DNA of 64,000 nt from Pseudomonas sp. ADAK13. Its GTDB lineage: Bacteria; Pseudomonadota; Gammaproteobacteria; Pseudomonadales; Pseudomonadaceae. A program made the position numbers and the translations under genes. The notes beneath the pieces were generated by a model. It worked only from the letters and a program-made list of their open reading frames with translations. It made no database searches and was not told the DNA's origin. This document shows positions 9,253 through 44,585 of the stretch, piece after piece; positions within the stretch are counted from its first letter, which is position 1, and each line of letters starts with the position of its first letter. The stretch lies in assembly GCF_012935715.1 (NCBI RefSeq), contig NZ_CP052860.1, positions 248,001-312,000 of the forward strand, read 5' to 3'.

Positions 9253-9785
9253 GGCTTGGCCTCATCCACCAGCGCCTGGTACTTGGCGGCCAGTTGCTCG
9301 CGCCACACCACTTCGTCGATCACGCCCACGTACTTGTCGCGGATCACGCCCTTGGCGTCGATGAAGAAGGTTTCCGGGGCGCCGTACACGCCGAGGTTCA
9401 GGCCGAGGTTGCCGTCTTCGTCGCGGATATCCAGCTGGTACGGGTTGTGGAATTCTGCCAGCCACTTCAAGGCGGCAGCGTTGTCGTCCTTGTAGTTGAT
9501 GCCGTAGATCACCACGCCGTTCTCGGCCAGCTTGTTCAGCACCGGGTGCTCGACACGGCAGGAAATGCACCAGGTGCCCCACACGTTGACCAGCGCCGGT
9601 TTGCCCTGCAAATCCGCTTGGGTCAGGGTTTTGTCGCCCTGTACGGTCGGCAGCGAGAACGCCGGGAACGGCTTGCCGATCATCGCCGAGGGCAGCTCGG
9701 CCGGGTCCAGGTACAGCCCGCGATACAGAAACACCGCCACCACCAGGAACGCCGCCAGCGGTAACACCATCAACCAACGCTTCAT
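9249..9785 (-). CDS. ccmG: Thiol:disulfide interchange protein CcmG (DsbE)
   Basis: 178 residues: an N-terminal membrane anchor (residues 4-21) and a periplasmic thioredoxin-like domain with active site WCISC (Cys73, Cys76). The conserved GVYGAPETFFID segment, which carries the cis-proline region, is present. It passes electrons to CcmH and apocytochrome c. The start overlaps the ccmF stop. Confidence 0.95.
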   Translation of the reverse strand: MKRWLMVLPLAAFLVVAVFLYRGLYLDPAELPSAMIGKPFPAFSLPTVQGDKTLTQADLQGKPALVNVWGTWCISCRVEHPVLNKLAENGVVIYGINYKDDNAAALKWLAEFHNPYQLDIRDEDGNLGLNLGVYGAPETFFIDAKGVIRDKYVGVIDEVVWREQLAAKYQALVDEAKP

Positions 9786-11770
9786 ACCGCTGCTCCTTGC
9801 AGGCCGAGGGCTTCACGCACCCGGCTCTTGACCTTGACCCGATAACGCCGGTCCATCGCGGCCAGCAAACCACCGAAGCCTGTGAGCAGGCCGCCGAACC
9901 AGATCCAGCGCACAAACGGTTTGACGTGGACCCGCACGGCCCAGGCGCCATCGCCCAGCGGTTCACCCAGGGCGACGTAGAGGTCACGGGTGAAACCGGC
10001 GTCGATCCCGGCTTCGGTCATCATCGAGCTTTGTACGGTGTACAGACGTTTTTCCGGGTGCAGCACCGCGACTTCCTTGCCGTTGCGCACGACGCGCACG
10101 GTGCCCTTGTCAGACGTGAAGTTCGGGCCTTCGAAGTGCTTGGCGCCTTCGAAAATGAAGTGGTAACCGGCCAGGTCCATGGACTCGCCCGGCGCCAGAC
10201 GCAGGTCGCGCTCGGCGCTGTTCTGGCTGGACAACACCACGCCCAGGGCGCACACGGCGATGCCGATATGCGCGACCTGCATGCCCCAGTAGCTGCGGGT
10301 CATGGTCGGCAGGCCCTTGATCAGGCCTTTGTGACGGGTCTTGTCGATCAGGTCGCGCACGCCGGCCAGCAATACCCAGGCGGCGAGCATGAAGGTAGCG
10401 AGCACGGCCCAGTTGAAGTCGCCGTAGGCAATCCCGGCGATCACCGCCAGCGCGGCGCTGCCCAGCAGCACCGGAGTCAGCATGCCCACCAGCCATTTCA
10501 CCGGGGTGTCTTTCCAGCGCACCAACACGCCGACCGCCATCACCACCATCAACAATGCCATCAACGGGATGAACAGTGCGTTGAAGTACGGCGGGCCGAC
10601 GGACAGCTTGGCGCCGCTCAGGGCATCCAGCACCAACGGGTACAGGGTGCCGAGCAGGATCATCGAGGCCGCCACCACCAGCACCAGGTTATTGCCCAGC
10701 AGCAGGGTTTCCCGGGACCAGAGGTTGAAGCCGACGTGGCTCTTGACCACGGGGGCGCGCAACGCAAACAGCGTCAGCGAGCCGCCGACCACAAACAGCA
10801 GGAAGATCAGGATGAACACGCCGCGCTCCGGGTCGGAGGCAAACGCGTGAACCGAGGTCAGCACGCCGGAACGCACCAGGAACGTACCCAGCAGGCTCAG
10901 GGAGAACGCAGCGATGGCCAGCAACACGGTCCAGCTCTTGAACACGCCACGTTTTTCCGTGACCGCCAGCGAGTGAATCAGCGCCGTGCCCACCAGCCAG
11001 GGCATGAAGGAGGCGTTCTCCACCGGGTCCCAGAACCACCAGCCGCCCCAGCCAAGTTCGTAGTAGGCCCACCACGAGCCCAGGGTGATGCCGATGCCGA
11101 GGAACGCCCAGGCGACGATGGTCCAGGGTCGCGACCAGCGCGCCCAGGCCGCATCAAGACGCCCACCGAGCAACGCGGCGATGGCAAACGCGAAGGCTAC
11201 CGAGAACCCTACATACCCCATGTAGAGCATCGGCGGGTGCACGATCAGGCCGATGTCTTGTAGCAGCGGGTTGAGGTCGTGGCCGTCTACCGGGATCTGC
11301 GGCAGGATGCGGGTGAACGGGTTGGAGGTCATGATCAGGAACAGCAGGAAACCGATGCTGATCATGCCCATCACCGCCAGCACCCGGGCCAGCATCACTT
11401 GCGGCAACTGGCGGGAGAAGATCGATACGGCAAAGGTCCAGCCGCCAAGGATCAATGCCCACAGCAGCAACGACCCTTCGTGGGCGCCCCAGACGGCGCT
11501 GAACTTGTAGTACCAGGGCAAGGCGCTGTTGGAGTTATTGGCGACGTAGGCGACGGAAAAGTCGTCGGTCATGAAGGCGTAGGTCAGGCAACCGAAGGCG
11601 AACACCAGAAAGGCGAACTGGCCCCAGGCGGCCGGCTGGGCCAGGCTCATCCACAGGCGATCACCGCGCCAGGCGCCCAGCAGCGGGACCACGGCCTGGA
11701 CGATGGCAAAGCACAGGGCGAGGATCATCGCCAACTGGCCCAACTCCGGAATAAACAATGCGGACGTCAT
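9782..11770 (-). CDS. ccmF: Heme lyase subunit CcmF
   Basis: 662-residue polytopic membrane protein. The tryptophan-rich WWD heme-handling segment is at about 231-258 (GSWWAYYELGWGGWWFWDP). Conserved membrane histidines are seen, for example in GLIVHPPMLYMGYVG at about 174-188. It is full length for the family. It attaches heme from holo-CcmE to apocytochrome c with CcmH and CcmI. Confidence 0.96.
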   Translation of the reverse strand: MTSALFIPELGQLAMILALCFAIVQAVVPLLGAWRGDRLWMSLAQPAAWGQFAFLVFAFGCLTYAFMTDDFSVAYVANNSNSALPWYYKFSAVWGAHEGSLLLWALILGGWTFAVSIFSRQLPQVMLARVLAVMGMISIGFLLFLIMTSNPFTRILPQIPVDGHDLNPLLQDIGLIVHPPMLYMGYVGFSVAFAFAIAALLGGRLDAAWARWSRPWTIVAWAFLGIGITLGSWWAYYELGWGGWWFWDPVENASFMPWLVGTALIHSLAVTEKRGVFKSWTVLLAIAAFSLSLLGTFLVRSGVLTSVHAFASDPERGVFILIFLLFVVGGSLTLFALRAPVVKSHVGFNLWSRETLLLGNNLVLVVAASMILLGTLYPLVLDALSGAKLSVGPPYFNALFIPLMALLMVVMAVGVLVRWKDTPVKWLVGMLTPVLLGSAALAVIAGIAYGDFNWAVLATFMLAAWVLLAGVRDLIDKTRHKGLIKGLPTMTRSYWGMQVAHIGIAVCALGVVLSSQNSAERDLRLAPGESMDLAGYHFIFEGAKHFEGPNFTSDKGTVRVVRNGKEVAVLHPEKRLYTVQSSMMTEAGIDAGFTRDLYVALGEPLGDGAWAVRVHVKPFVRWIWFGGLLTGFGGLLAAMDRRYRVKVKSRVREALGLQGAAV

Positions 11771-38539: not shown

Positions 38540-39910
38540 TCAGGCGTAATAGTCCACCGCGCTGGAGCCGATCACGGACTGCACAACCGGCGCTGCGACT
38601 TCAGCCACTTCACCGACACCGCCGCCATCAGCCCCATCACCCCGCCCGCCACTGCCACTGACGCCGCGGGCCTGGTTCTGCTGTTGCTGGTCCTGGCCCT
38701 GTTGACCCTGCCAGCCACGGGACTGGTCGGACACGTTGACGTCGACCTGGCCCATGCCCTGCTGGGCGAACATCTCCCGCAGGCGTCCCGACTGGCTTTC
38801 CAGGGCTTCACGCACCACCGCGTGGCCGCTCATGAAGGTGACCTGCGCCTGTTGGTCGGCGGACATTTTCACGCTGATGTCCAGGCGGCCCAGTTCAGCA
38901 GGCTGCAACTGGATTTCGGCCGACTTGAGGTTGGCGCTGGACAAGTACATGACCCGGTTCACCACCTCATCCGTCCAGCCGCTCTGGTGCATGGCCAATG
39001 GCGCGTTGGCGACCGGCGGCAAGGCATTCGCGGTTTTCGGCGTGGCAGCCTGGGTCAGCGCGGCGAGACGGTTGGCAAAGTCATCGACACGGGTGTCGCT
39101 GCTGGCGTCCTTCAGGTCCTTGAGGCCGCCGTCGATCAGGCCGGTAAAGGCTTTGTCGCCGCCCTGGTCGGTGCTGTCCTTGGCCGCTTGCTGATCGACC
39201 ATATTGGCCAGGCCCGTGGCGAAGTTTTGCGCGGCGGTCGGCTGATCCTGGGTCGGGGCCGGGGCGGTTTTTGCCGGGGTTTGGCTGCTGGCGGAAACGT
39301 GTCCGCCCTGCTCCATGGCCAGGCGCACGGCGGGCATGGCGTCCAGCGGATCGGCCTCGGGGTCGAAGGCGGGCTTGGCGTCGTCGGTCGCGGCCACCGC
39401 AGGTGCCACCACGGGTTGGGCCTTGTCATCTTTCGCTGCCGCCGGTGCCGGCGTCTCGACGGGCGCCGGCGCTGCGGGAACGGGAACGGGGACGACCGCC
39501 GCCACAAGCGCCGGGTCGACGGTGGGGTCAACCGGGGGTTGCTGGGCCAGGGTCGGGTCGTCTGCAGGCGCCGTGTCGTCAGCCTTAGCGGTGGTGTCCG
39601 GGGGGTCGGACTTGGCCGGCGGGGTGGCAGGCAAAGTCTTGCCGTTATCGGCAACCGATGGGGTGCCGGCGGCAGGCTTGTCGTTGTTGGCGGCGGGCTT
39701 TGCGCTGCTGTCCGCAGGCTTGTCGCGGGTGGATCTGGTGGTGGTGTCGGTGGGTTTTGCCGCAGGCGTGGAGGCCTGGTTGGCGAACACCTGAGCGAAG
39801 CCCGGGGCCTTGTCCCGCGGGTCCGCAGCCACTGCCGGTGGATTGGCAGCGGGCGCTTGAGGCTTGGCCGCAGGGGCCGCCTGAAGGAGCGAATTCGGGG
39901 TGATTGCCAT
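38540..39910 (-). CDS. fliK: Flagellar hook-length control protein FliK
   Basis: 456 residues from ATG 39910 (MAITPNSLLQAAP). The N-terminal 270 residues are low-complexity Ala/Pro/Asp/Thr ruler sequence. The C-terminal FliK domain carries LKSAEIQLQPAELGRLDISV and FMSGHAVVREALESQSGRLR, followed by a Gln-rich tail. It measures the hook and triggers the FlhB switch. It lies just downstream of the repeat island but keeps its own sigma-54 site. Confidence 0.93.
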   Translation of the reverse strand: MAITPNSLLQAAPAAKPQAPAANPPAVAADPRDKAPGFAQVFANQASTPAAKPTDTTTRSTRDKPADSSAKPAANNDKPAAGTPSVADNGKTLPATPPAKSDPPDTTAKADDTAPADDPTLAQQPPVDPTVDPALVAAVVPVPVPAAPAPVETPAPAAAKDDKAQPVVAPAVAATDDAKPAFDPEADPLDAMPAVRLAMEQGGHVSASSQTPAKTAPAPTQDQPTAAQNFATGLANMVDQQAAKDSTDQGGDKAFTGLIDGGLKDLKDASSDTRVDDFANRLAALTQAATPKTANALPPVANAPLAMHQSGWTDEVVNRVMYLSSANLKSAEIQLQPAELGRLDISVKMSADQQAQVTFMSGHAVVREALESQSGRLREMFAQQGMGQVDVNVSDQSRGWQGQQGQDQQQQNQARGVSGSGGRGDGADGGGVGEVAEVAAPVVQSVIGSSAVDYYA

Positions 39911-39961
39911 ATATAAGAGTCTCCGCCGCACAGGGGTCGAGGGTGCGGTTACAGGAGGTAG

Positions 39962-39977
39962 AGCAAGAGTTGGGCCA
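39962..39977 (-). promoter_or_regulatory. Sigma-54 promoter for fliK
   Basis: Minus strand TGGCCCAACTCTTGCT: GG and GC separated by 10 bases and a consensus TTGCT at -12. The -12 element lies about 53 bases before the fliK ATG and the -24 element only about 15 bases from the edge of the repeat island. Confidence 0.75.
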
Positions 39978-39992
39978 GCTTTTGGGTTTGGT

Positions 39993-40350
39993 GTGTATAT
40001 CCGTTGTTTGGGTTAGGGCCGCTATTGGTTCCGCTCTTACAGCGGCTCACTTTTGAACAGCGCAAAAGTAAGCAAAACGCTCTTGCCCCACCACTCGGCA
40101 CCTCGCTCAGGCTCGGTGTGCCCTCAACTCCGGTAGTACTCCGCGGGCCGCCGCGACGGGGCGTCCCTGCCCCGTCGCGGCTAAACCGGCGTCCTGCCGG
40201 TTTACCCGCTCCGTACTACCTGCGTTCGGCCAGCGTGGTTTAACGGGGCGCCTAAGATCAAGATCAAAAGCAGATCAAAAACACAGCGGCCTACAGGCCG
40301 GCTTGAGTGGTGTGAAGCAAAGGCAAGATCAAAATCAAAAGCGGGCACGC
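39993..40350 (+). repeat. Left copy of the inverted repeat that flanks the IS3 element
   Basis: The sequence from GTGTATATCCGTT to about AAGATCAAAATC recurs, inverted and diverged, at about 42130-42480. Long shared blocks include GGTTCCGCTCTTACAGCGG, GCCGCGACGGGGCGTCCCTG and CGGCCTACAGGCCGGCTTGA. Two adjacent perfect hairpins lie in it: 40151-40180 (12-base stem) and 40182-40204 (9-base stem). Short open frames across it do not look like real genes. Confidence 0.85.
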
Positions 40351-40387
40351 GGCGTTTTTCAAGGTAGTTGTCGCGCTCATCGTCGTA

Positions 40388-41437
40388 CTACGCGGCTTTT
40401 ATTACCACTGTCAGCTCCCTTTCAGGGTTCAGATACACCGTCCCGATAGGGTTCCAGTTGCGTGTCTCACCTGACCATCTTTCCGGTCTTCTCTCTCTGG
40501 CTTGCCTGTATACCGCATCTCGGCGAGCCAAGATTTCCCGGTCTTTCCCTTCGTGACGTTGAGCGGGTGTCACGAAGCGGATCCGACTATGACGGTGCAC
40601 GGTGTTGTACCAGGTCATAAAATTCCTTACCCAGATACGCGCCTCATCCAGGCTGGAAAACCCGTCCTGCGGCCACTGCGGGCAGTATTTCAGCGTTCTG
40701 AACAACGATTCCGAGTACGGGTTGTCGTTACTGACCCGTGGTCTACCGCGAGACGGCGTGATGCCCAAGTCGTACATCTTGGTTAGTAGCGTTAACGATT
40801 TCATCGGCGCACCGTTGTCCGAGTGAAGCACCAACGGCTGGAGCCAACACTTTTCCTGAGTCACGCTTCGTTGCAGCAACGCGGCTGCTTTTTCACCGCT
40901 TTCTGCTTCGTAAACTTCCCAACCCACCGCCTTCCGGCTGTAGATATCCTCGATCAGATAGAGGTAGTAAAACTTTCCGCGAACCGGTGACGGCAAGTAA
41001 GTGATGTCCCATGACCACACTTGATTGGCGGCGGTCGCCGCATAAGTCGTGGGCGCCTCATGACGATGCGGCCGCTTGGCACGCGAGCGATGTTGCTGCT
41101 GACCTGCCGCGTGCAGTACGCGATAAAATGTCGCCTCCGAGGCCATGTAACGCCCCTCGTCAGCCAGCTGTGGCACGATTTGGCTCGGCGGCAGATGCGC
41201 ATAGGTTTTGCTGTTGCACAGCGTCACGATACTTTGCCGTTCAAGCTCACTGAGTGCGTTGTTCGGCATCCGCCTGAGCGTCGTCGTGCGCCCATCCGCC
41301 AAGATTTCTTCCGGCAAATTCCAGCGTTGCAGTGTCCTCAGTGAAAGGCCTACCTCCTGACAAGCAGGCGCCCTGCGGGCGCCCGCCAGGATGGCTTCAT
41401 TGAGCCAACCAACGAGTAAATACCGTTCTGGCAACAA
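40388..41437 (-). CDS. IS3-family transposase OrfB (DDE integrase core)
   Basis: 349 residues counted from TTG 41437. The rve catalytic triad is seen as WDITYL (Asp), LHSDNGAPM (Asp) and PYSESLFRTLKY (Glu). An HTH-like N-terminal part (QEVGLSLRTLQRW) precedes it. The frame is open upstream to the A6G slip site in orfA, so the working product is probably an OrfAB fusion made by -1 frameshifting rather than a protein starting here. No inactivating stop is visible. Confidence 0.9.
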   Translation of the reverse strand: MLPERYLLVGWLNEAILAGARRAPACQEVGLSLRTLQRWNLPEEILADGRTTTLRRMPNNALSELERQSIVTLCNSKTYAHLPPSQIVPQLADEGRYMASEATFYRVLHAAGQQQHRSRAKRPHRHEAPTTYAATAANQVWSWDITYLPSPVRGKFYYLYLIEDIYSRKAVGWEVYEAESGEKAAALLQRSVTQEKCWLQPLVLHSDNGAPMKSLTLLTKMYDLGITPSRGRPRVSNDNPYSESLFRTLKYCPQWPQDGFSSLDEARIWVRNFMTWYNTVHRHSRIRFVTPAQRHEGKDREILARRDAVYRQARERRPERWSGETRNWNPIGTVYLNPERELTVVIKAA

Positions 41438-41439
41438 GG

Positions 41440-41946
41440 TCAGTTGTCCTCGTCGTCGCTCCCCCAGTAGGCATTGAGCTTTTTTCTCAGCACCAGTAAC
41501 GCCGCCGTCTCGGCCAGCGCCGCATCCTTGCGGCGTAGTTCGCGCTCAAGCTCACGGATCCTTTTTTTATCATCCCGTGACTGCCCTGAACTCGCCGTTT
41601 TCGCAGCTGGTTTTTGGGTGCTACTGGCGATAAACGCATTACGCCAATCGGTAATCTGCTCGGGAAAAATACCTTTTCTTCGGCAATATTCACCGATCTC
41701 CAGTTCCGACAGCGAACCGGTCTCTATGATGACCGTCAGTTTGGATTCGGCTGACCAATTTTCGGCGGGTTGTTTAGCGTCGGACAATTGCGTTCCTCTG
41801 GCAGCAGCTTGTTTGCGCCAATAATGGAGAGACATATCGCTGCAACCTTCGCGGCGAGCGACCTCCGCTGCTGAAAGGCTCAGGGGCGGAAGCATCATTT
41901 TCAGCAGTGCGGCTTTACGTTCATCTGAGTAGAAAGGCATGACCAT
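41440..41946 (-). CDS. IS3-family transposase OrfA
   Basis: 168 residues. The N-terminal HTH is of the transposase_8 type (SAAEVARREGCSDMSLHYWR), a second HTH-like part follows (EYCRRKGIFPEQITDWRNAF), and a C-terminal leucine-zipper-like helix (KRIRELERELRRKDAALAET) provides multimerisation. It ends with DDEDN two bases before the first possible orfB start. The -1 slip heptamer lies at 41479-41485. Confidence 0.88.
   Translation of the reverse strand: MVMPFYSDERKAALLKMMLPPLSLSAAEVARREGCSDMSLHYWRKQAAARGTQLSDAKQPAENWSAESKLTVIIETGSLSELEIGEYCRRKGIFPEQITDWRNAFIASSTQKPAAKTASSGQSRDDKKRIRELERELRRKDAALAETAALLVLRKKLNAYWGSDDEDN
41479..41485 (-). promoter_or_regulatory. Programmed -1 frameshift site in the IS3 transposase
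   Basis: Minus strand A AAA AAG, in the orfA frame as AGA AAA AAG CTC. After a -1 slip the frame continues without a stop (GCT CAA TGC CTA CTG...) into orfB. This is the classic IS3-family slippery sequence. Confidence 0.8.
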
Positions 41947-42021
41947 ACTCTTGCCGCCCCCGAAATGTGTTCAAAAAGCGGTGGACGCGACAACTACCCT
42001 GACACCGGGGGCACGGTGAAA

Positions 42022-42109
42022 TGTGGGAGCTGGCTTGCCTGCGATGGCATCGCCTCGGTGTACCTGAAAAACCGAGGTGTCTGCATCGCAGGCAAGCCAG
42101 CTCCCACAG
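42022..42109. repeat. REP inverted pair inside the repeat island
   Basis: TGTGGGAGCTGGCTTGCCTG and its exact inverse enclose about 45 bases with a further inner inverted repeat (CCTCGGTGTACC / ACCGAGGTG). It lies just outside the right end of the IS. Confidence 0.9.
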
Positions 42110-42129
42110 AAAAGCAGAGCTGCATCCGT

Positions 42130-42480
42130 TTCAGATTTGGCTTTCGCTTTTGATCTGGCTTCTACCACTCAAGCCGGCCTGTAGGCCGCTGTGCTCTTGC
42201 TTTTGATCTTGATCTGGCTCTGACTGCCCCAATAAGCCCGAGGCCGAACGCAGGGATTGAGGAGCGGGTAAACCGGCAGGACGCCGGTTTAGCCGCGACG
42301 GGGCAGGGACGCCCCGTCGCGGCGGCCCGCGGAGCAATGCCGGAGTGAGGGAACACCGAGCCTAGGCGAGGTGCCGACAGGCGGGGCAGAGCCCTTTGGT
42401 TACTTTGGGGCTTTTCCAAAGTGACCCGCTGTAAGAGCGGAACCATAAGCAGCCGTTACCGAAATAACGGATATACACCC
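42130..42480 (-). repeat. Right copy of the inverted repeat that flanks the IS3 element
   Basis: Inverse, diverged copy of the 39993-40350 repeat. Its outer end GGTGTATATCCGTT (minus strand) lies 9 bases from the hptB stop. The paired hairpins are conserved at 42269-42291 and 42293-42322 with identical stems. Spacer and flanking bases differ more than the hairpin stems. Confidence 0.85.
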
Positions 42481-42488
42481 CAACAGCG

Positions 42489-42836
42489 TCAGAGCCCAAA
42501 CCGCTCCCGCTCATGCTCATACAACGGCCTTACCAACGCGAACTCATGGTCAATTTCATCCACCAACCGCCCCAAATCCGCAACCACAGGCTTGGCCGAC
42601 CGATCCTCAAGCAACTGACAAAGCTCAGCCAACCGCACGGCCCCAAGGTTACCGCTACTCCCCTTGAAGCTATGGGCAATCCGCCCCAACGCCTTGGCAT
42701 CATCCCGCGCCCGGCGCAGCGCCTCTACCCGCTTCTGCGAGTCATCGAGAAACGTGTCGAGCAGCTTCGGATACTCGCCCTCCATGACCTCCTGCAAGCC
42801 GGTCAGCACATCGGGGTCCAGATGAATCTCTGCCAC
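42489..42836 (-). CDS. hptB: Histidine phosphotransfer protein HptB
   Basis: 115-residue HPt domain with phospho-accepting His55 in GRIAHSFKGSSGNLGA. In P. aeruginosa HptB receives phosphate from several hybrid sensor kinases (such as RetS, PA1611, ErcS' and SagS) and passes it to HsbR. It is the last gene of the hsbA-hsbR-hptB string, before the repeat island. Confidence 0.88.
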   Translation of the reverse strand: MAEIHLDPDVLTGLQEVMEGEYPKLLDTFLDDSQKRVEALRRARDDAKALGRIAHSFKGSSGNLGAVRLAELCQLLEDRSAKPVVADLGRLVDEIDHEFALVRPLYEHERERFGL

Positions 42837-42866
42837 TTGTTCGCTCCTTGATCAAGAATCGGCGGA

Positions 42867-44585
42867 TTATGCCAGAGCCTTCCATGAAAACTCCACGCAC
42901 ACACACCGCCCGCCGTCAGTCCAGCCTACATCGCTGCTCAACTGACGTACCAGGCTCAACCCCCGACCAGACAGACGGTCAACATCCAGCGGCCTGGCCA
43001 GCACCTTCTCCACATCAAACCCCGGCCCACTGTCCTCGATCCGCAAGGTCAGGCAACCGCCCTCCCCGGCCGGCACCACATTCAGGTGCACCCGCACATA
43101 CCCGCTGTTCACCTGCGCCAGCCGCTCATTACGCTCCCGGTAATACGCCGCAAATCCCTGGGCATCCCGCTTCAGCCGCGAATCCAGCCCCAGCACACCA
43201 TGCTCCAGGGCATTGGAATACAACTCCGCCATCACCGTGTACAACGCACCGCTCTGCTCACGCAGCCCATGAATCTCCAACAGCAGTTGCAGCAAATACG
43301 GCAAAGGGTTGTAGGACTTGAGCGTCTCGGCACGAAATTCAAAGCTGACCGACCAATCCAGCGGCGACGACTGGCCGCTGTCGGAATACATCACCGACGG
43401 CGAGCGCAACACCTCCCCCGCCTGCAGGCTGATTTCCACCATGCTGATGTCATCGCGCACTTCACCGCGAAAACCCGCCAGGGCCTGCTCGATCTCCTCG
43501 AACAACCGGTCGGGCTCGCGATTGGCCGCAAACACCTGCTGCAAACGCTCGGCGCCAAACAATTGCTCGTGGGCATCGGCGGTGTCCAGCACGCCATCCG
43601 ACAACAAGAACACCCGGTCACCCAGCGCCATCGGCCAGACTTCAGTGCGGTCATCAAACGCCTCGGCCGCCAATATGCCCAGCGGCAAATGCCGAGACAG
43701 CAGCGGCGTGCGCTTGCCGGTGGCGATTTCATGCACGTAGCCCTCGGGCATGCCGCCGTTCCACACTTCCACCACCCGCCGCTGGGCGCTGAGGCACAGC
43801 AGGGTGGCGCAACAGAACATGTCCACCGGCAAGATGCGCTTGAGCTTGGCGTTCATCTCCCGCAACGTCTGCGCCAGGCCGTAACCCTTGGCGGTCATGC
43901 CGTAGAACACTTCCGCCAGGGGCATGGCGCCGACCGCGGCGGGCAAACCGTGGCCGGTGAAATCCCCCAGCAGCACATGCATGTCACCCGACGGCGTATA
44001 GGCGGCCAACAGTAAATCGCCGTTGAACAGCGCGTAGGGCGATTGCACGTAGCGAATATTCGGCGCGGCGTTGATACAGCCGGAGTGGGCGACCTTGTCG
44101 AACACCGCCTTGGCCACCCGCTGTTCCTGCAACAGATGGTCGTTGTGCCGGGCGATCAGGTCCCGCTGCTGTAATACCGTGGCCTGCAAGCGGCGCAGTC
44201 GGTCCATGGCGTTGATCTTCGCCGCCAGGATCACCTGGTTATAGGGTTTGGCCAGGAAGTCATCACCGCCCGCATCCAGGCACTGGGCCAGGGCTTCGCT
44301 CTCGCGCAGGGAGGTGAGGAAGATGATCGGCACCAGCGCTTCCCCCGCCAGGTGCTTGATCTGCCGGGCCGCCTCAAAGCCATCCATGACCGGCATCAGG
44401 GCGTCCATCAACACCAACTGCGGCCGCTCGCGGATGAACACTTGCACCGCTTCCTCGCCGTTGCTGGCGGTGATCACCTGGTGGCCCTGGCGGCGCACAA
44501 TGGTCGACAGCAACAACAGGTCAGCGGCGCTGTCTTCGGCGATCAACACCGTCAGCGCCTCAAGGACCGGGGCCAGGACGCTCAA
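42867..44585 (-). CDS. hsbR: Response regulator HsbR with PP2C phosphatase and anti-sigma kinase domains
   Basis: 572 residues: a receiver with acceptor Asp61 (LVLMDALMPVMDGF); a helical linker; a PP2C/SpoIIE domain (VLLGDFTGHGLPAAVGAMPL; DRVFLLSDGVLDT); and a C-terminal HATPase_c domain of RsbW type (ELYSNALEHGVLGLD; RIEDSGPGFD). The start is TTG 44585, overlapping the hsbA stop. It toggles HsbA between phosphorylated and unphosphorylated forms. Confidence 0.88.
   Translation of the reverse strand: MSVLAPVLEALTVLIAEDSAADLLLLSTIVRRQGHQVITASNGEEAVQVFIRERPQLVLMDALMPVMDGFEAARQIKHLAGEALVPIIFLTSLRESEALAQCLDAGGDDFLAKPYNQVILAAKINAMDRLRRLQATVLQQRDLIARHNDHLLQEQRVAKAVFDKVAHSGCINAAPNIRYVQSPYALFNGDLLLAAYTPSGDMHVLLGDFTGHGLPAAVGAMPLAEVFYGMTAKGYGLAQTLREMNAKLKRILPVDMFCCATLLCLSAQRRVVEVWNGGMPEGYVHEIATGKRTPLLSRHLPLGILAAEAFDDRTEVWPMALGDRVFLLSDGVLDTADAHEQLFGAERLQQVFAANREPDRLFEEIEQALAGFRGEVRDDISMVEISLQAGEVLRSPSVMYSDSGQSSPLDWSVSFEFRAETLKSYNPLPYLLQLLLEIHGLREQSGALYTVMAELYSNALEHGVLGLDSRLKRDAQGFAAYYRERNERLAQVNSGYVRVHLNVVPAGEGGCLTLRIEDSGPGFDVEKVLARPLDVDRLSGRGLSLVRQLSSDVGWTDGGRCVCVEFSWKALA

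Follow-up and report, generated by a model that had tools for sequence, protein, structure and literature searches.

The window analysed here is a 64,000-nucleotide stretch of the chromosome of Pseudomonas sp. ADAK13 (NZ_CP052860.1, positions 248,001 to 312,000), in which an IS3-family element lies between two long inverted repeats in the interval separating hptB from the promoter of fliK. Such an arrangement can be read as a composite mobile unit or as a pair of older repeats into which the insertion sequence later moved, and the initial annotation of this DNA left both readings standing. What are these repeats, and how did the insertion sequence come to lie between them? The features of the locus are as follows, in window coordinates:

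38540..39916, minus strand: fliK, reading away from arm A (NCBIfam/Pfam)
39963..39977, minus strand: presumed −24/−12 element of fliK, TGGCCCAACTCTTGC, intact
39993..42480, plus strand: whole two-armed unit, split by the IS (about 830 bp once the IS is subtracted), with its A-to-B axis along the plus strand
39993 to about 40345-40350, plus strand: arm A; the folded strand reads inward
39997..40018, plus strand: terminal hairpin sequence of arm A (ATATCCGTT..), imperfect at the hptB–fliK copy
40150..40181, plus strand: central hairpin of arm A, with KOPS-like GGGCAGGG on the minus strand
40346..40349, no strand: left copy of the IS3 target duplication, CACG (from sequence)
40350..42011, minus strand: IS3-family insertion sequence, 1662 bp long provided that it ends in CCCCCGG
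40388..41437, minus strand: IS3 orfB (rve; NCBIfam transpos_IS3 above cut-off)
41440..41946, minus strand: IS3 orfA (HTH_Tnp_1; NCBIfam/Pfam)
42012..42015, no strand: right copy of the IS3 target duplication, CACG (from sequence)
42022..42108, no strand: REP pair (REPIN-like) between the arms (from sequence)
42130..42480, minus strand: arm B, inverted (BLAST against arm A)
42292..42323, minus strand: central hairpin of arm B, with KOPS-like GGGCAGGG on the plus strand
42453..42474, minus strand: terminal hairpin of arm B, ATATCCGTTATTTCGGTAACGG (290453-290474 in the complete genome, G000)
42489..42836, minus strand: hptB (Hpt domain; Pfam), reading into arm B

The layout given in the initial annotation is borne out. 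The two diverged arms stand in opposite orientation and are 82% identical over 357 nt by BLAST, with ungapped pieces complementary at 93% (105 nt), 82% (101 nt), 86% (43 nt) and 94% (36 nt), and the REP pair lies between arm A and the inverted arm B. The same sequence, GTGTATATCCGTT, is indeed read at each outer end (39993 on the plus strand and 42478 on the minus strand), the matches in G000, a single contig of 7.30 Mb, lying at 287993 and 290466-290478. The transposase frames between the arms match NCBIfam and Pfam models and place the element in the IS3 family (NF033516, 187.5 bits against a cut-off of 160; PF00665 and PF01527). About 8-9 bases separate one end of the unit from the stop codon of hptB, and the other end is 15 bases from TGGCCCAACTCTTGC, by its motif a sigma-54-type −24/−12 element; both the gene and the promoter are intact, as had been noted. 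Open frames of 79 and 94 aa within the arms (window 40004-40243 and 42162-42446) look spurious, and annotation may call them genes.

The locus is one of many. The core of arm A occurs at 73 places in G000 and its reversed-pattern control at none, which excludes chance, and the core of arm B occurs at 71 places, all within the fetched units described below and again with no reversed control. We fetched 74 stretches (L039-L112), comprising every A-core place plus one B place that lacks an A core, and BLAST finds arm A together with an inverted arm B in 72 of them; the exceptions are L068, where one arm is truncated, and L112, where most of A is missing. The genome contains at least 75 units, the 75th being decayed. 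This last unit lies at L234 6469-7025 (G000 C1:3899469), between genes that, judged by their protein starts, look cobQ- and cobU-like. The cobQ–cobU-like gap of an unrelated-looking genome, G122, holds a single arm (L214, about 9778-10053), making this a second site that recurs across species.

The build of the units is regular. In the 61 units without an IS and with one hit per arm, the gap between the arms has a median of 127 nt, and at least one REP half lies between the arms in 67 of the 74 units, both halves being exact in 37. Like MITEs, the 74 units carry terminal inverted repeats, with GNGKRYATATCCGTT at both ends; the target-site duplication by which MITEs are also recognised is absent, and no enriched direct repeat was found at the ends of the 74 units that would mark a duplication around the whole. 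The terminal hairpins of the two arms differ, with A reading CCGTT..GATGG in 31/74 units and B reading CCGTT..AACGG in 59/74. Of 149 matches to the end pattern, 144 fall in the 74 units, two would fit the 75th and about three are left over, compared with five for the reversed controls; no autonomous parent with the unit ends was seen among the matches listed in the own genome. Elsewhere in the genus, the core of arm A (at most two mismatches) is present in 25 of the 149 genomes drawn, the own genome included.

Seen against these copies, the IS3 element at hptB–fliK is a later, site-preferring insertion into an older unit. All six IS3 copies found in G000 lie inside units, at several inner positions, whereas 68 of the 74 fetched units have none. 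Members of the IS3 family generate short target duplications of 3–5 bp, and five of the six copies have a short duplication of their own (GTAG, CCGA, CGTG, GTGC and TTGA), which is 4 bp long if the element ends in CCCCCGG. Thus, with IS3 in 6/74 units and its duplication within the unit, the reading of older repeats into which the IS moved is upheld. By contrast, the composite reading, in which the IS would be mobilised by the repeat copies on either side of it, appears extremely improbable. The arms do flank the IS with matching outer ends, but they are A and B subtypes rather than a pair of IS copies, the IS possesses ends and a duplication of its own, relatives hold the unit at hptB–fliK without an IS3 hit, and both the 68 units that lack IS3 and the failure of any duplication to bracket the unit contradict a composite mobile unit. 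A composite transposon of two IS copies moving together was likewise rejected, the arms being free of transposase and the same 68 units of a central IS.

The IS3 is not the only guest. An IS110-family element (227.8 bits, cut-off 140) occupies one fixed site in arm A in four other units of the 74, as counted inside the units, and an IS481-like element, which at 209 bits falls below its cut-off of 224, interrupts the arms in 4 of the 14 units of another genome, G119. The units also explain the landing places of several unrelated IS families, and an IS between inverted repeats is here no sign of a composite transposon. In all six IS-bearing units the sense of the IS3 is opposed to the inward sense of the nearest arm. 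Inversion by recombination between the arms, which the initial annotation had raised, is possible in principle, but it has left no trace here, the IS strands agreeing in six of six. At one unit (L084, G000 C1:5002493) the IS3 has unmatched flanks, TTGA on one side and GTAG on the other, which look like the product of recombination of two IS copies within one unit.

The history of the site can be followed in relatives. Among 61 named relatives, the gap from hptB to the −24 element is at most 120 nt in 38, with a minimum of 16 nt, and an empty site, for which the initial annotation had recommended a search, is thereby found. The gap measures 129-268 nt in four further relatives, an arm follows directly after hptB in 18 (nine of these contigs ending inside the arm), and one contig ends at hptB; the −24/−12 element after hptB is also kept in relatives. 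Shrunken units in L145 and L151, together with end remnants in L128, L129, L133 and L140, indicate that the unit decays in this gap by internal deletion. When a clean empty site was looked for at other units, the single case, L107 compared with L188, proved to have lost flank too.

Two further genomes, G095 and G048, share many sites with G000. Of their 48 unit entries, 37 (35 distinct sites) lie at sites that also hold a unit in G000, and the spread of the units is thus not recent. The median identity of arm A is 93.6% between same-site copies of G000 and G095 and 92.8% between copies within G000, and the best match in G095 is the same-site arm in 2 of 20 site comparisons, some of these pairs being matched by one flank. 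Same-site arms are therefore no closer than copies within G000, which indicates concerted evolution. The unit is old, dispersed and non-coding, and many of its sites have stayed fixed while the arms were homogenised within each genome.

The units are placed predominantly at gene ends. The neighbouring gene reads into the arm at 108 of 148 arm sides and away from it at 40, and in 79 of the 108 the arm lies within 25 nt of the stop codon; 42 of the 74 units are located between convergent genes. Immediately beyond each end, G+T makes up 76-86% of the first 10 nt on the inward-reading strand, whatever the direction of the gene.

The arms keep a common multi-branched fold that covaries strongly, and they are probably structured in RNA. 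RNAalifold predicts a multi-branched structure of 68 pairs, 24 of them changed on both sides, for 22 selected arms, which were taken from 24 representatives of 226 arms with additions by hand and with large-deletion arms left out. When the terminal hairpin is added, the fold comprises 73 pairs, again with 24 changed on both sides, and has 97.5% of cells paired compared with 88.7% in shuffled controls, and 138 cells changed on both sides compared with 43. None of 500 shuffles reaches the observed fold on four of five measures, the fifth, the number of further pair types, being no better than in the shuffles (300/500), and slid versions of the structure pair 36.6-47.0% of cells. Single-sequence z-scores are −5.4 inward and −4.0 outward for arm A, and −5.1 and −5.3 for arm B. 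With three G-U-dominated pairs dropped, G-U cells exceed A-C cells by 194:27 in arm A and 238:31 in arm B, whereas by number of pairs the ratios are 20:10 and 14:15, so that this test of the strand gives a divided answer. The G-U excess does no more than suggest which strand functions, and arm B folds equally well on either strand. A search of Rfam over 39500-43000 gave no match at thresholds; with E up to 5, arm A has six sub-threshold hits, the best being TwoAYGGAY on the outward strand (38.6 bits against 43). The covariation of the arms could alternatively arise from hairpin-directed repair of palindromes.

The explanation that we favour, and to which we assign about an even chance, is that the units are old repeats dispersed at 3' ends, with a probable RNA structure, homogenised by gene conversion and used as landing sites by insertion sequences. 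Each arm would work mainly as a predicted structured 3' RNA element for the gene reading into it, where it may protect the mRNA end or act in termination, and the inverted pair of arms would serve two convergent genes. Gene conversion of the RecA type may keep the copies alike. A 3' RNA role alone, however, leaves one property of the units unexplained, namely the polarity of their A-to-B axis.

Relative to dnaA, located at 2.249 Mb, and dif, located at 5.974 Mb, the A-to-B axis of the hptB–fliK unit points towards oriC within its own replichore, as the axis does in 63 of the 74 units (binomial 5e-10), with 29/34 and 34/40 in the two replichores and 57/65 among units more than 250 kb from dif. 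In most units A-to-B thus points against fork movement. When gene context is assigned by a simple codon-usage gene caller, the axis points towards ori in 34/42 convergent, 14/15 and 8/9 co-directional and 7/8 divergent settings; as the bias recurs in each of the four contexts, the axis follows replication rather than transcription, and an orientation set by transcription is ruled out. KOPS in the unit flanks bear out the replichore map, 58 of them being directed towards ter compared with 5 in the opposite sense. Unit by unit, the KOPS sign agrees with the map in 39 cases and disagrees in two, with 33 no-calls, and local GC skew agrees in 63 and disagrees in 11. Near dif, the KOPS of two units, L092 and L093, show the expected sign, and both units still count as exceptions to the polarity.

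The same sign is observed in G119, where 11 of 14 units point towards ori (p 0.057), an inverted partner is seen at 10 of the 14 and 12 of the sites are without a counterpart among the 74 G000 units. In G059 all five units point towards ori, only one of the five sites being without a G000 counterpart. Because of the sites that they share with G000, we discount as independent support the polarity of G095 (28/31 called units ori-pointing, nine uncalled; 40 of its 52 units covered) and of G048 (5/5 called, two uncalled; 7 of its 24 units covered). No bias is seen in G122, where, at 14 of its 38 places, three axes point towards ori and five towards ter with six uncalled. In this genome four complete arms are single, having no inverted partner within 900 nt, and ten others are unjudgeable. 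The four single arms (L214, L215, L217 and L223) have REP-like sequence just outside their outer end.

For the origin of the polarity we offer two weaker suggestions. It may have been set during the spread of the units, through insertion into one strand at forks by a trans-acting enzyme, or it may be maintained because copies in the wrong orientation, if they exchanged ectopically, would give rise to harmful inversions. Taken further, the first would make the unit a non-autonomous element, akin to a giant REPIN or MITE, moved in trans by a strand-choosing enzyme of the HUH/RAYT type, with the arm hairpins as transposase sites and the polarity as a mark of lagging-strand insertion. We consider this possible, if doubtful. 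The terminal hairpins at both ends, which differ between A and B, would suit such an enzyme, as would the missing duplication around the unit, the polarity with its recurrence in G119, and the G119 sites that are free of G000 counterparts. On the other hand, an autonomous parent is not seen among the end matches listed, and the sites shared between G000 and the G095 and G048 entries speak against recent movement. Elements of the IS200/IS605 layout have ends that are not inverted, and the inverted ends of the unit depart from this layout. Two elements, IS608 and ISDra2, are said to target the lagging-strand template, in the account of them given in PMC6006769, which fits insertion of this kind.

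The second suggestion can also stand by itself: the polarity would then be a by-product of selection against harmful inversions, often-recombining copies being tolerated within a replichore only when they are direct repeats. That copies exchange sequence is shown by their concerted evolution, and the polarity mirrors about the ori–dif axis, as selection of this kind would have it. Nevertheless, we regard it as somewhat unlikely, given that every unit already holds both arm orientations at 82% identity and that 11/74 wrongly oriented units persist, at least four of which (L043, L082, L106 and L111) lie at sites also occupied in G095.

A role in chromosome organisation, with the KOPS-like motifs or oriented hairpins guiding FtsK or other replication-linked machinery, is highly unlikely. 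The units are polar, the A and B hairpins carry GGGCAGGG and the flanking KOPS are polar as well, but the KOPS-like motifs of A and B point in opposite ways: among the 63 ori-pointing units, a ter-directed A motif is present in 50 and a wrongly directed B motif in 45, and among single-motif units the excess of permissive over non-permissive cases is weak (20 versus 12). With the A and B motifs opposed, KOPS as the driver of the polarity is unsupported. The genome, in which the flank count otherwise stands at 58:5, thus contains many wrongly directed KOPS inside the units.

Finally, the unit could be a chromosomal element of a new, replication-polar kind, in which a large structured RNA motif stands at gene ends in two fixed subtypes that form an inverted pair, is oriented by the direction of the fork and is kept by homogenisation within the genome rather than by recent transposition. 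This we judge to be quite unlikely; if true, it would tie 3'-end RNA structure to fork polarity and to IS targeting.

Our preferred reading of the units as old 3'-end repeats can be set beside several known systems, although in open-licence PMC text we found no description of paired A/B units or of their polarity. The nearest by description are two repeats of Pseudomonas fluorescens, R200 (320 bp, 47 copies in SBW25) and R26 (352 bp, 20 copies in Pf0-1) (Silby et al. 2009, PMC2718517), which resemble the units in size, copy number, intergenic place, bacterial group and bias towards tail-to-tail gene pairs. Compared in this way, by description only, they differ in that Table 3 of that paper gives no inverted-repeat structure for R200 or R26, and the sections describing them make no mention of paired arm subtypes, replication polarity or a covarying fold. 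With REPINs and BIMEs, as outlined by Bertels and Rainey (2011, PMC3116915), the units share inverted pairs of palindromic repeats, an intergenic place and persistence over time, but the arms are about 350 nt long and multi-branched, unlike REPs of about 20 nt (PMC3116915). The REPIN arrangement of two short inverted REPs about 60-70 bp apart is confined to the centre of the unit and does not describe the unit as a whole.

Insertion sequences that target REPs have been described for ISPsy8 (IS3 family, 5/5) and for ISPpu9 and ISPpu10 (IS110 family, 7/7) (Tobes and Pareja 2006, PMC1525189). As with those elements, members of the IS3 and IS110 families enter dispersed palindromic repeats, but the target here is a unit of about 830 bp, in which IS3 uses several inner positions and IS110 one fixed A-arm site. 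The choice of strand relative to the fork recalls the replication-biased elements IS608 and ISDra2, from which, as they are portrayed in PMC6006769, the unit differs in having no transposase gene, in its inverted arms and in its largely inherited sites.

For the P. fluorescens group, the 2009 account cited above (PMC2718517) listed large intergenic repeats without a mechanism. The strong, transcription-independent link to the fork offers a testable handle on how such repeats spread or persist, and a covarying fold of about 280 nt that occurs about 150 times in one genome and stays sub-threshold in every Rfam family is a candidate for a new class of RNA element. The density of units from ori to dif is uneven, the successive deciles holding 1, 1, 2, 11, 5, 8, 20, 14, 3 and 9. 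At one unit of G119 (L237 2480-3600), the centre is a tandem array of a REP-containing repeat, which is open in a long spurious frame.
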